Shown piece after piece: positions 31,762-49,095 of a DNA stretch of 64,000 nt. The notes under the pieces were generated by a model. That model saw only the letters and a program-made list of their open reading frames with translations, was not told where the DNA came from and made no database searches. The stretch lies in NCBI GenBank assembly GCA_900468535.1, contig UBTY01000017.1, positions 1-64,000 on the forward strand, in the 5' to 3' direction. A program made the position numbers and the translations under genes. Source of the stretch: Hyphomicrobiales bacterium. Lineage in GTDB: Bacteria > Pseudomonadota > Alphaproteobacteria > Rhizobiales > Rhizobiaceae. Within the stretch, counting starts at the first letter, position 1. Every line of letters starts with the position of its first letter.

Positions 31762-31940
31762 GATTTTCCCTCCTTCGCGTTTCCTCAAACGCCGTTGCCG
31801 GCTGCGCGATCGTCTGCGGATGGCGAGCCACACAGGCGATCCGAAGTCCGATGAGGTCATGGATGTCGTCTGAATATCAGGATGTTATCATATGGTGAAT
31901 GGAAAATAAACGGATGGCAACCCATGCGGGAGACGATAAA

Positions 31941-31969
31941 GCAAAGGCAGCGTCGAGCGCTGCCTTTGC
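31941..31969 (-). terminator. Terminator of the SH3b/DUF1236 gene
   Basis: GCAAAGGCAGCG, a five-base loop and CGCTGCCTTTGC form a perfect 12-bp stem. On the minus strand it is followed by TTTATC. Confidence 0.8.
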
Positions 31970-31984
31970 TTGTTGATCAGTCCA

Positions 31985-33437: not shown

Positions 33438-33465
33438 AAAAAGCGCCGCGAGACGCGGCGCTTTT
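33438..33465. terminator. Bidirectional terminator between MBL hydrolase and BA14K genes
   Basis: AAAAAGCGCCGCG, an AGA loop and CGCGGCGCTTTTT form a perfect 13-bp stem with T runs on both strands, between two convergent genes. Confidence 0.9.
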
Positions 33466-33489
33466 TCTAGTTCGGATAGATGCTGGAGA

Positions 33490-47675: not shown

Positions 47676-47723
47676 CTATAAATCGATGAAAGGCGATATA
47701 TGGATAGACAGAATTCGATTCAA
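47676..47723 (-). promoter_or_regulatory. arsR promoter with overlapping candidate operator
   Basis: On the minus strand TTGAAT (47723-47718) and TATATC (47700-47695) are 17 bases apart. An imperfect inverted repeat, CATATATCG-N8-CGATTTATAG (about 47676-47703), covers the -10 box and the start site, a position suited to ArsR repression. Confidence 0.55.
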
Positions 47724-47772
47724 GGCCGGCAACCGACGCAACGGTCGATTTTTGCATGGTTAAATTTTAAGC

Positions 47773-47888
47773 AAAAAAAGAGGGCCGCCGAATGAACGGG
47801 GCCCTTTAAGGTGTGAAGGTCAATAAACCTCCAGAGGGGAACAGCTAACGCGGTGGCACTGGGAGAGAAGCCACCATGTGCATCAGCT
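47773..47888 (-). ncRNA. abcR: AbcR-type (alpha-r15) small RNA, downstream copy
   Basis: A predicted transcript of about 116 nt. It contains CTCTCCCAGTGCCACCGC and GTTCCCCTCTGGAGGTTTA (minus strand), the two unpaired anti-Shine-Dalgarno-like modules of AbcR RNAs. It ends in a GGGCCCC/GGCGGCCC hairpin followed by CTTTTTTT. AbcR RNAs are Hfq-dependent repressors of ABC-transporter mRNAs in Rhizobiales and lie in tandem beside lsrB in Sinorhizobium and Agrobacterium, as here. I cannot say which copy is AbcR1 or AbcR2. Confidence 0.87.
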
Positions 47889-47894
47889 GAGATG

Positions 47895-47923
47895 GATATG
47901 ATGCTTTGGCAGGCAGAATTCAA
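47895..47923 (-). promoter_or_regulatory. Promoter of the downstream AbcR copy
   Basis: TTGAAT (47923-47918) and CATATC (47900-47895) on the minus strand, 17 bases apart, about seven bases before the predicted RNA start. Confidence 0.6.
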
Positions 47924-47929
47924 CGCCTG

Positions 47930-47955
47930 TTTGCGCATGCCTGCTATGCATTGCA
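47930..47955. promoter_or_regulatory. Degenerate inverted repeat upstream of the downstream AbcR copy
   Basis: TTTGCGCATG, five bases, then TATGCATTGCA. The left arm is identical to that upstream of the other copy; the right arm is degenerate. The centre is about 54 bases before the predicted transcript start. Confidence 0.5.
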
Positions 47956-47987
47956 GCATTTTTTGTTGCGCTGCGAAAAAAACGGGC

Positions 47988-48101
47988 AAAAAAAGAGGGC
48001 CGCCGGAAAGCCGGGGCCCTTATAGGTGTGAAGGTATAAACCTCCAGAGGGGAACAGCTAATGCGGTGGAACTGGGAGGAAAAGCCACCGTGTGCATCAG
48101 C
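47988..48101 (-). ncRNA. abcR: AbcR-type (alpha-r15) small RNA, upstream copy
   Basis: A predicted transcript of about 114 nt, closely similar to the copy at 47773-47888, with CCTCCCAGTTCCACCGC and GTTCCCCTCTGGAGGTTTA. The terminator is GGGCCCCGGCTTTCCGGCGGCCC followed by TCTTTTTTT on the minus strand (the stem arms given here as one hairpin). The shared parts are the two C-rich modules and the terminator; the middle and 5' end differ more. It lies 98 bases after the lsrB stop on the same strand. Confidence 0.87.
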
Positions 48102-48108
48102 TGAGTGC

Positions 48109-48137
48109 GATATGGTGCTTTATTGGGCAAACGGCAA
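48109..48137 (-). promoter_or_regulatory. Promoter of the upstream AbcR copy
   Basis: TTGCCG (48137-48132) and CATATC (48114-48109) on the minus strand, 17 bases apart; the -10 hexamer is identical to that of the other copy. Confidence 0.6.
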
Positions 48138-48140
48138 CCC

Positions 48141-48171
48141 CATTTTGCGCATGCCAGTCATGCGCAAAATG
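48141..48171. promoter_or_regulatory. Perfect 13-bp inverted repeat, candidate LysR-type activator site
   Basis: CATTTTGCGCATG, CCAGT, CATGCGCAAAATG: a perfect palindrome with a five-base centre, three bases upstream of the -35 box and centred about 54 bases before the predicted sRNA start. Size and place fit a LysR-type activator site. VtlR/LsrB-type regulators are known to control abcR genes in Brucella and Agrobacterium. Confidence 0.6.
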
Positions 48172-48198
48172 CACGGCTTGCATTTCCTGATGCCGCAA

Positions 48199-49095
48199 CT
48201 AGAAGTTCCAGTTGCGCGCCTTGCTGACGATGAAGTCCCGGAAGGCCTTGAGTTTGGCCGCATTTTTCATTTCATCCGGGTAGCAGAAGTAGGTGTCGAA
48301 CGACGGAACATCGGCGTTTATCGGTAGCTGAATCAGGCCCGGGTCACGACCGACGATGTAATCCGGCATGCAGGCGACGCCCATGCCGAGCAGGCAGGCG
48401 CGCTTGATAGAGGTCTGGCTGTTGATCTGCAGATGCGGAATGCGCTTGTTGTCGGACGAGCGTCCGGCGACCTCCAGCCAGTTGACGTCGAGGAGATAGT
48501 TCGGTGCCGGTTCGCCGAAAGTGATGATGCGGTGGTTGTCGAGATCCTCCACCGTCTGCGGTTCCCCGTGCCTGTTGATGTAGGAGGGGGCCGCATAGAC
48601 GTGCATGTGCACGGTGAACAGCTTGCGCTGGATCAGATCCGATTGCACCGGCTGGCGGAGCCGGATGGCGCAATCGGCGTAGCGCATGTTGACGTCCACT
48701 TCCTCGTTGTCGAGGATCAGCTGGATCTGGACGTCAGGATAGAGCTGCATGAACTCCTGGATCTTGTCGGTCAGCCAGCCCTGGCCGAGGCCGACGGTCG
48801 TCGTGACACGCAGCTTGCCGGTCGGCGTTTCCGTCGTTTCGGTGAGTTGCATCTTCACCGTTTCGAGCTTCAGGAGAACGTCGTGCGCGGTACGATAAAG
48901 CAGCTCGCCCTGTTCCGTCAGGATCAGGCCGCGGGCATGGCGGTGGAACAGCTTGGTGCCGACATCCTGCTCAAGAGCGCTGACCTGGCGGCTGATGGCG
49001 GATTGAGACAGATGCAGCTTGTCGGCCGCATGCGTAAACGAGCCCGCTTCGGCAGCTGCGTGAAAAATACGCAGCTTGTCCCAATCCAATGGCAT
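48199..49095 (-). CDS. lsrB: LysR-type regulator LsrB (VtlR-like)
   Basis: 298 residues. A winged helix (KLRIFHAAAEAGSFTHAADKLHLSQSAISRQVSALEQD) is followed by an effector domain with Cys142, Cys234, Cys242 and Cys271. In Sinorhizobium LsrB is a redox-responsive regulator of symbiosis, lipopolysaccharide and glutathione genes; its Brucella and Agrobacterium relatives (VtlR) activate abcR. GGGGG precedes ATG 49095; a longer frame runs into trxB. It follows trxB by 23 bases and lies directly upstream of the AbcR genes. Confidence 0.92.
   Translation of the reverse strand: MPLDWDKLRIFHAAAEAGSFTHAADKLHLSQSAISRQVSALEQDVGTKLFHRHARGLILTEQGELLYRTAHDVLLKLETVKMQLTETTETPTGKLRVTTTVGLGQGWLTDKIQEFMQLYPDVQIQLILDNEEVDVNMRYADCAIRLRQPVQSDLIQRKLFTVHMHVYAAPSYINRHGEPQTVEDLDNHRIITFGEPAPNYLLDVNWLEVAGRSSDNKRIPHLQINSQTSIKRACLLGMGVACMPDYIVGRDPGLIQLPINADVPSFDTYFCYPDEMKNAAKLKAFRDFIVSKARNWNF

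Follow-up and report, generated by a model that had tools for sequence, protein, structure and literature searches.

A putative LsrB/VtlR activator site before tandem AbcR small RNA genes in Rhizobium

The lsrB-abcR locus

The window (the whole 64,000-nucleotide stretch analysed) carries, on the minus strand and read from right to left, trxB, lsrB, an inverted repeat, two AbcR small RNA (sRNA) copies and an ArsR-type gene. Since the closest named lsrB loci are those of Rhizobium, this was taken as the genus of the window. The features are given below, with promoter positions counted from the ar15 model start, a predicted 5′ end in the window organism.

50093-49119, minus strand: trxB
49095-48199, minus strand: lsrB/vtlR, LysR-type regulator of 298 aa (start codon chosen)
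48171-48173, minus strand: upstream half-site TGC, -71 to -69 (TGC-N7-GCA, LysR T-N11-A register)
48141-48171, no strand given: perfect 13-5-13 inverted repeat, from an arm search
48149-48163, minus strand: core of the putative LsrB/VtlR dyad, GCATGACTGGCATGC, -61 to -47 of proximal AbcR, containing the published box GCAT-N3-TG-N3-T (PMC7486931, PMC8844928)
48143-48147, minus strand: conserved CAAAA tail, -45 to -41, in the interval between dyad and -35, from the promoter profile
48132-48137, minus strand: proximal -35 hexamer TTGCCG (TTG at -35 to -33, 1.65-1.86 bits in the profile)
48127-48129, minus strand: further conserved TGC, -27 to -25, within the promoter spacer, from the promoter profile
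48109-48114, minus strand: proximal -10 hexamer CATATC, from sequence and alignment
48102-47991, minus strand: AbcR (ar15) sRNA, lsrB-proximal copy (Rfam RF02345, 121.2 bits)
47935-47949, minus strand: distal core dyad GCATAGCAGGCATGC, whose reverse complement GCATGCCTGCTATGC fits the published box
47918-47923, minus strand: distal -35 hexamer TTGAAT
47895-47900, minus strand: distal -10 hexamer CATATC
47888-47776, minus strand: AbcR (ar15) sRNA, distal copy (Rfam RF02345, 105.9 bits)

The sRNAs themselves are ordinary, two full-length tandem ar15 members that both exceed the RF02345 gathering score of 40. A promoter scan with an E. coli-type consensus called no promoter in the abcR region. 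By comparison with the S. meliloti locus (L114), the proximal copy appears AbcR1-like by position and promoter, and the distal copy AbcR2-like by position. The window LsrB is 87% identical to the LsrB of L114, with two of the 60 positions of its HTH (residues 5-64) differing, and the published S. meliloti locus is arranged likewise, the tandem abcR genes lying between an ArsR gene and lsrB (PMC8844928).

The published LsrB/VtlR box, GCAT-N3-TG-N3-T (PMC7486931), is found at -61 to -49 in S. meliloti PabcR1, as in the window, with a sigma-70 type promoter downstream (PMC8844928). For S. meliloti abcR1 there is LsrB EMSA and loss of reporter activity, abcR2 is RpoH1-dependent, and no further conserved motif was found in abcR2 promoters (PMC8844928). 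A. tumefaciens VtlR, whose targets include abcR1 and the small protein Atu1667, binds abcR1 in EMSA, and abcR2 promoter DNA did not compete (PMC7486931). LsrB also binds and activates S. meliloti nfeR1, where it was recovered by promoter pull-down (PMC10746234), and B. melitensis VtlR controls AbcR2 and three DUF1127 proteins (PMC12595884); targets in relatives are AbcR, NfeR1 and DUF1127 proteins (PMC8844928, PMC10746234, PMC12595884). The A. tumefaciens/Brucella VtlR box has the same core sequence as the window site, with an AbcR sRNA and small DUF1127 proteins among its targets (PMC7486931, PMC12595884). In-vitro binding has been published for S. meliloti abcR1 and nfeR1 and for A. tumefaciens abcR1, atu1667 and vrsA. 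Earlier conserved motifs in AbcR promoters are cited by PMC3712013 (its reference 26), and the available part of a 2025 paper on A. tumefaciens LsrB (PMC11975290) makes no mention of AbcR, a binding motif, a consensus or a palindrome.

The inverted repeat has arms of 13 nt (48141-48153 and 48159-48171) that are 100% complementary about a 5-nt loop, just as the first-pass annotation described it; read towards the sRNAs it is CATTTTGCGCATG-ACTGG-CATGCGCAAAATG. The same annotation had both dyads centred about 54 bases before the predicted sRNA start, and the centres do lie 54 bp before the ar15 model start at each copy (48156 versus 48102; 47942 versus 47888). Its description of the repeat as common to both AbcR promoters holds for the inner dyad (GCAT-N7-ATGC) and for the arm on the sRNA side, CATGCGCAAA, TTTGCGCATG being located at 47930-47939 before the distal copy, and not for the full 13-bp palindrome. 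Perfect inverted repeats with arms of at least 13 and a loop of 3-20 number three in the real window versus none in each of 12 window shuffles (two-letter blocks); conservation is the better test for the repeat than such shuffles. The other two perfect repeats of the window lie at 31939-31971 and 33438-33466, with arms of 14 and 13 bp, and the latter, flanked by A and T runs, resembles a two-way terminator.

Conservation of the AbcR promoters

We compared 80 named lsrB loci, two loci from a plasmid collection and 28 ar15 loci that a search of 121 family genomes supplied; lsrB adjoins 22 of these 28. The sRNA starts were placed by profiles and the 100 bases upstream of each were aligned, so that 105 proximal and 89 distal entries gave 102 and 87 distinct promoters, the window included. 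Published-motif counts use promoters distinct over the last 85 bases (99 proximal, 85 distal), and pairing counts leave out promoters with fewer than seven of the eight dyad letters (101 proximal, 77 distal retained). Where a second copy had no matched 5′ end (L064, L066-L069, L071, L073, L075, L082, L152, L154 and L167), its promoter was not entered among the distal ones, and loci L085-L113, except L101, were left out of the counts. A set of deeper homologues comprises 20 regions hand-picked among lower-scoring family-search matches.

At least seven of the eight letters of GCAT-N7-ATGC are present in 101 of the 102 distinct proximal promoters, at -61 (97) or -62 (4), as against 0.9% of shuffled promoters; the exception, L154, has six. 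Both window dyads start at -61, matching the published position of about -61 to -49. The proposal of the first-pass annotation that an LsrB/VtlR site stands before abcR, adjoining lsrB, is thereby sustained, the core being the published box at the published position (PMC8844928). The profile of 49 non-redundant proximal promoters reads GCATGnCTGnCATGC at -61 to -47, with 1.2-1.9 bits outside the two n, and gives TGC at -71 to -69 1.35-1.65 bits; the CAAA tail, the TTG of the -35 and the TGC at -27 are also conserved. The proximal copy has the T-N11-A register with a flanking inverted repeat, as TGC-N7-GCA at -71 to -59, and TGC at -71 occurs in 42 of 48 non-redundant proximal sites. The same register is seen in the S. 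meliloti nfeR1 site, TGCA-N6-GCAT, upstream of the NfeR1 sRNA; that site was described by its upstream register (PMC10746234), and the two registers overlap in the proximal abcR site. The dyad is also kept, with at least seven letters, in seven of eight unlinked ar15 copies and in 17 of 21 deeper homologues, among which its position scatters from -54 to -62 because the 5′ ends are uncertain there.

Searched with the published box, the 99 proximal promoters fit on the sense strand in 76 cases and on the other strand in 10 (either, 86), the window site fitting GCAT-N3-TG-N3-T on the minus strand. Nine of the 13 that fit on neither strand have the dyad. The VtlR box was published as one-sided, whereas in the alignment it is two-sided, a GCAT-N7-ATGC dyad of which a form with the centre base swapped also exists.

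This swapped form is found at the distal copy. The window's distal dyad does not match the published motif when read on the sense strand, but its reverse complement, on the plus strand, does, and the 85 distal promoters divide similarly (sense 20, other strand 52, either 72). At least seven dyad letters are present in 77 of the 87 distal promoters; the other ten are that of S. meliloti (L114) and nine drawn from the family sample. In S. meliloti the abcR2 promoter lacks the dyad, unlike the second copy in the window and its genus. TGC at -71 is found in one of the 27 non-redundant distal sites that have the dyad, and the distal copy of the window lacks the LysR register. The first-pass annotation took the distal right arm for a degenerate one, a view we abandon: judged by the alignment, the distal site is not a decayed palindrome, relatives keeping that form. 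A scoring profile built from 48 relatives' proximal promoters, and favouring proximal sites by construction, gave 30.3 bits for the proximal site and 11.4 (plus strand) or 9.1 (minus strand) for the distal one. Three chance matches of at least 9 bits, two of them of at least 12, turned up in 256 kb of shuffled window; the distal site scores no better than these, and the evidence for it is position and conservation. It is a candidate and, because of its different form (centre base swapped, no -71 half-site), probably a weaker LsrB target. A stronger response of the lsrB-side copy, as first suggested, is plausible through the TGC at -71 and the profile scores, though the reason then given, a perfect versus a degenerate repeat, falls away.

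The outer left arm of the repeat spans -69 to -62, its first base belonging to the TGC half-site. In the 49-promoter profile -67 to -63 are unconserved (0.04-0.09 bits) and -68 and -62 partly conserved (0.75 and 0.57 bits). Only one of the 101 scored proximal promoters, the window's own, has all 13 pairs; it alone has all eight outer pairs, of which four relatives have six. Pairing frequencies are near those expected from column composition, with the largest excesses at inner pair 1 (87 versus 79.6 expected), where A-T replaces G-C in five promoters, and at outer pair 7 (46 versus 37.9 expected). We read this pattern as no clear selection for a stem; the excess at pair 1 may reflect a two-sided protein site, and most of the outer left arm probably adds nothing. 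The window differs in this respect from S. meliloti abcR1, its site sitting inside a 13-bp palindrome that is complete nowhere else in the comparison. The first-pass annotation had looked to conservation of the palindrome across relatives; the alignment keeps the core and loses the outer arms in the relatives compared, a result that tells against the outer arms alone.

That the whole palindrome is the functional unit, its symmetry giving a higher-affinity LsrB site readable on both strands, is accordingly improbable, and this part of the first-pass annotation was given up. The long core does match on both strands only at this site in the window's own genome, and several relatives keep 9-11 of the 13 pairs (11 in L005, L006, L009 and L012). 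However, the middle of the outer left arm carries almost no information, the outer pairs, even at pair 7, are about as frequent as the columns predict, and the core is kept in relatives without the arms; on the profile and the pairing counts the outer arms were set aside as a functional element. A hairpin terminating the lsrB mRNA or stabilising its 3′ end would suit a repeat that starts 27 bp past the lsrB stop codon and whose RNA strand forms a 13-bp stem. The 121-nt region there has a z-score of -2.62 (three of 200 shuffles as stable), to which a second predicted hairpin over the lsrB stop codon (about 48192-48219, minus strand) adds, and the innermost pair has the A-T replacements and the excess noted above. 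Yet the repeat has no U-tract and no terminator call and does not qualify as an intrinsic terminator, its outer stem is mostly broken in relatives with no clear covariation, and the same core stands before distal and unlinked AbcR copies and ar14 genes where lsrB does not directly precede. Because clear covariation and a U-tract are missing, we regard the hairpin as extremely improbable, and it was set aside on the pairing counts, the fold and the terminator scan.

Related LysR proteins can share half-sites. LsrB binding in the window organism is itself predicted, and some other regulator could be using the dyad. We think this very improbable, since the core coincides with the published LsrB/VtlR box in both sequence and position, lsrB lies next to it, and EMSA results exist for S. 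meliloti and A. tumefaciens (PMC8844928, PMC7486931). An explanation that we take seriously without favouring it concerns the distal copy, whose dyad could be a relic of duplication, with distal AbcR independent of LsrB and transcribed, for example, through RpoH1, the case known from S. meliloti. The RpoH1 consensus is CTTGAA-N16-CCTATAT (PMC8844928), and a TTGAA -35 is commoner in distal (61 of 87) than in proximal (13 of 102) promoters; 26 of the 27 non-redundant distal sites with the dyad have no TGC at -71, the profile score is low, and A. tumefaciens abcR2 DNA did not compete for VtlR (PMC7486931). Against a relic stands the retention of the dyad in 77 of 87 distal promoters, and the window's distal promoter (GTTGAA-N16-ATCATAT) agrees with RpoH1 in nine of 13 letters by eye, hardly above the proximal one (eight of 13). 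A double input of LsrB and RpoH1 at the distal copy is possible.

Related sites in the genome and on plasmids

The window's own genome (6.18 Mb, 96 contigs) was scanned for further sites. GCATNNCWGNCATGCRCAAA matched exactly at three places in the whole genome, both window promoters and one before a tRNA gene on C31, and within the genus 29 of 31 genomes had a match. In the own genome GCATNNCNGNCATGC with one mismatch was too loose and was dropped (203 and 231 matches); its reversed-pattern control gave 37 and 32, but differs in composition. At C31:7908-7927 the start of the exact long core lies 117 bp upstream of a tRNA-Lys(CTT) gene. Its dyad is kept in 12 of the 30 genus loci opened, is gone in several near relatives, and stands, by eye, some 32 bp more distant from the -10 than the abcR dyads do. 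A family-wide scan for this form of the site matched 12 of 151 genomes, some of the matches being abcR promoters. The tRNA-Lys(CTT) gene is not claimed as an LsrB target.

TGC-N7-GCAT-NNCWG-NNN-TGC occurs at seven places in the whole genome: at proximal AbcR, directly upstream of three ar14 sRNAs (C25, C56, C66), at C45:70505 beside 6S RNA, and at C62:75272 and C80:139009, which are unexplained and have no known LsrB link. The box followed by a -10 at a set distance (49 bases, or 48 on C65) is found at six places, namely both window promoters, a third AbcR (C62), an ar14/NfeR-family sRNA (C65), a DUF1127 gene (C45) and a LuxR-type gene (C59). Our own estimate of the chance expectation, which assumes 60% G+C, is about 1.5 matches, and a reversed-pattern control gave none.

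The third AbcR (C62:75972-76080, 91.8 bits) is unlinked to lsrB and has its own box, GCATAGCTGCATTGC. A class similar to it is present in other genera of the family sample. The fourth ar15 match is weak (C54:31948-32050, 44.1 bits) and has a different 5′ end, and the profile and motif scan found no LsrB box before it or before the weak ar14 matches on C83 and C80. Five ar14 copies lie above the cut-off; four fit the published motif, with site profile scores of 14.2 (C56), 19.4 (C66), and 23.0 and 21.0 (both on C65), and the copy on C42 has an imperfect site. The ar14 match on C25 has 56.5 bits, below the family cut-off of 58.8; an Atu_At1 sRNA there is divergent to a weak ar14-like sRNA with an LsrB-like box (L269 1291-1398 and 1567-1653).

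Downstream of 6S RNA, at C45:70738-70790, an LsrB-like box and TATATT at the standard spacing precede a DUF1127 gene, one of nine DUF1127 genes found in the own genome and the only one with box and -10. DUF1127 genes also adjoin ar14 sRNAs at C65:41555-42000 and C42:36277-37259. The box and -10 at C59:97032-97084 precede a gene of LuxR type, with autoinducer-binding and GerE domains, that lies beside a DUF1153 gene; similarity of the LuxR-type gene to VisR/VisN is far below the cut-off, and this site may be due to chance.

In the plasmid collection, 391 records match window positions 47700-48300, of which 273 are typed conjugative, suggesting that AbcR-like copies are common on plasmids. The lsrB-abcR locus is also carried by a record labelled S. 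meliloti pSymB (CP090106.1, 3.7 Mb).

Proposed mechanism and significance

The repeat, in our judgement, probably marks an activator site at an AbcR promoter for LsrB (VtlR), the product of the neighbouring gene, and we hold this with good confidence. The basis of this reading here is sequence, position, conservation, spacing and genome-wide specificity; that LsrB binds and activates in the window organism, or in any organism at the distal copy, would follow by analogy with the published systems. LysR regulators usually have an upstream anchoring dyad and activation contacts that reach the -35 box. In the proposed mechanism the recognised element would be the inner dyad GCAT-N7-ATGC at -61 to -47, anchoring LsrB, with the TGC half-site at -71, and possibly the TGC at -27, helping recognition, and with activation contacts reaching the -35 box. 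Once bound, LsrB would assist sigma-70 RNA polymerase at this promoter, whose -35 box is poor, and AbcR would therefore be made when LsrB is active. In Rhizobium the distal copy would be a weaker target through a separate conserved dyad, equally far from its start, that carries the box in reverse orientation and has no TGC at -71.

More tentatively, and as a reading slightly more likely wrong than right, we propose that LsrB reads a two-sided dyad (GCAT-N7-ATGC with a TGC half-site a turn further upstream), the published motif being half of it, and that it serves a battery of Rhizobium sRNAs in one geometry, comprising the three strong AbcR genes, four of the five ar14 (NfeR-type) genes above the family cut-off and a DUF1127 gene. 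If so, the split in S. meliloti, with LsrB acting on abcR1 and RpoH1 on abcR2, would represent a different state of the locus, one whose distal copy is without the LsrB box. We found no description of LsrB sites at both Rhizobium abcR copies, or of a two-sided box, in the literature searched, which took in few of the subscription journals.

The link between regulator and sRNA was known from published work on relatives, so that the present result largely confirms it for one more genus. What the comparison adds is a more precise definition of the site, drawn from about 100 promoters, and a caution that the striking palindrome is not the conserved unit. A further, testable claim is that in Rhizobium the two adjacent AbcR genes, together with several more sRNAs, may answer to LsrB, unlike the situation in S. 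meliloti.
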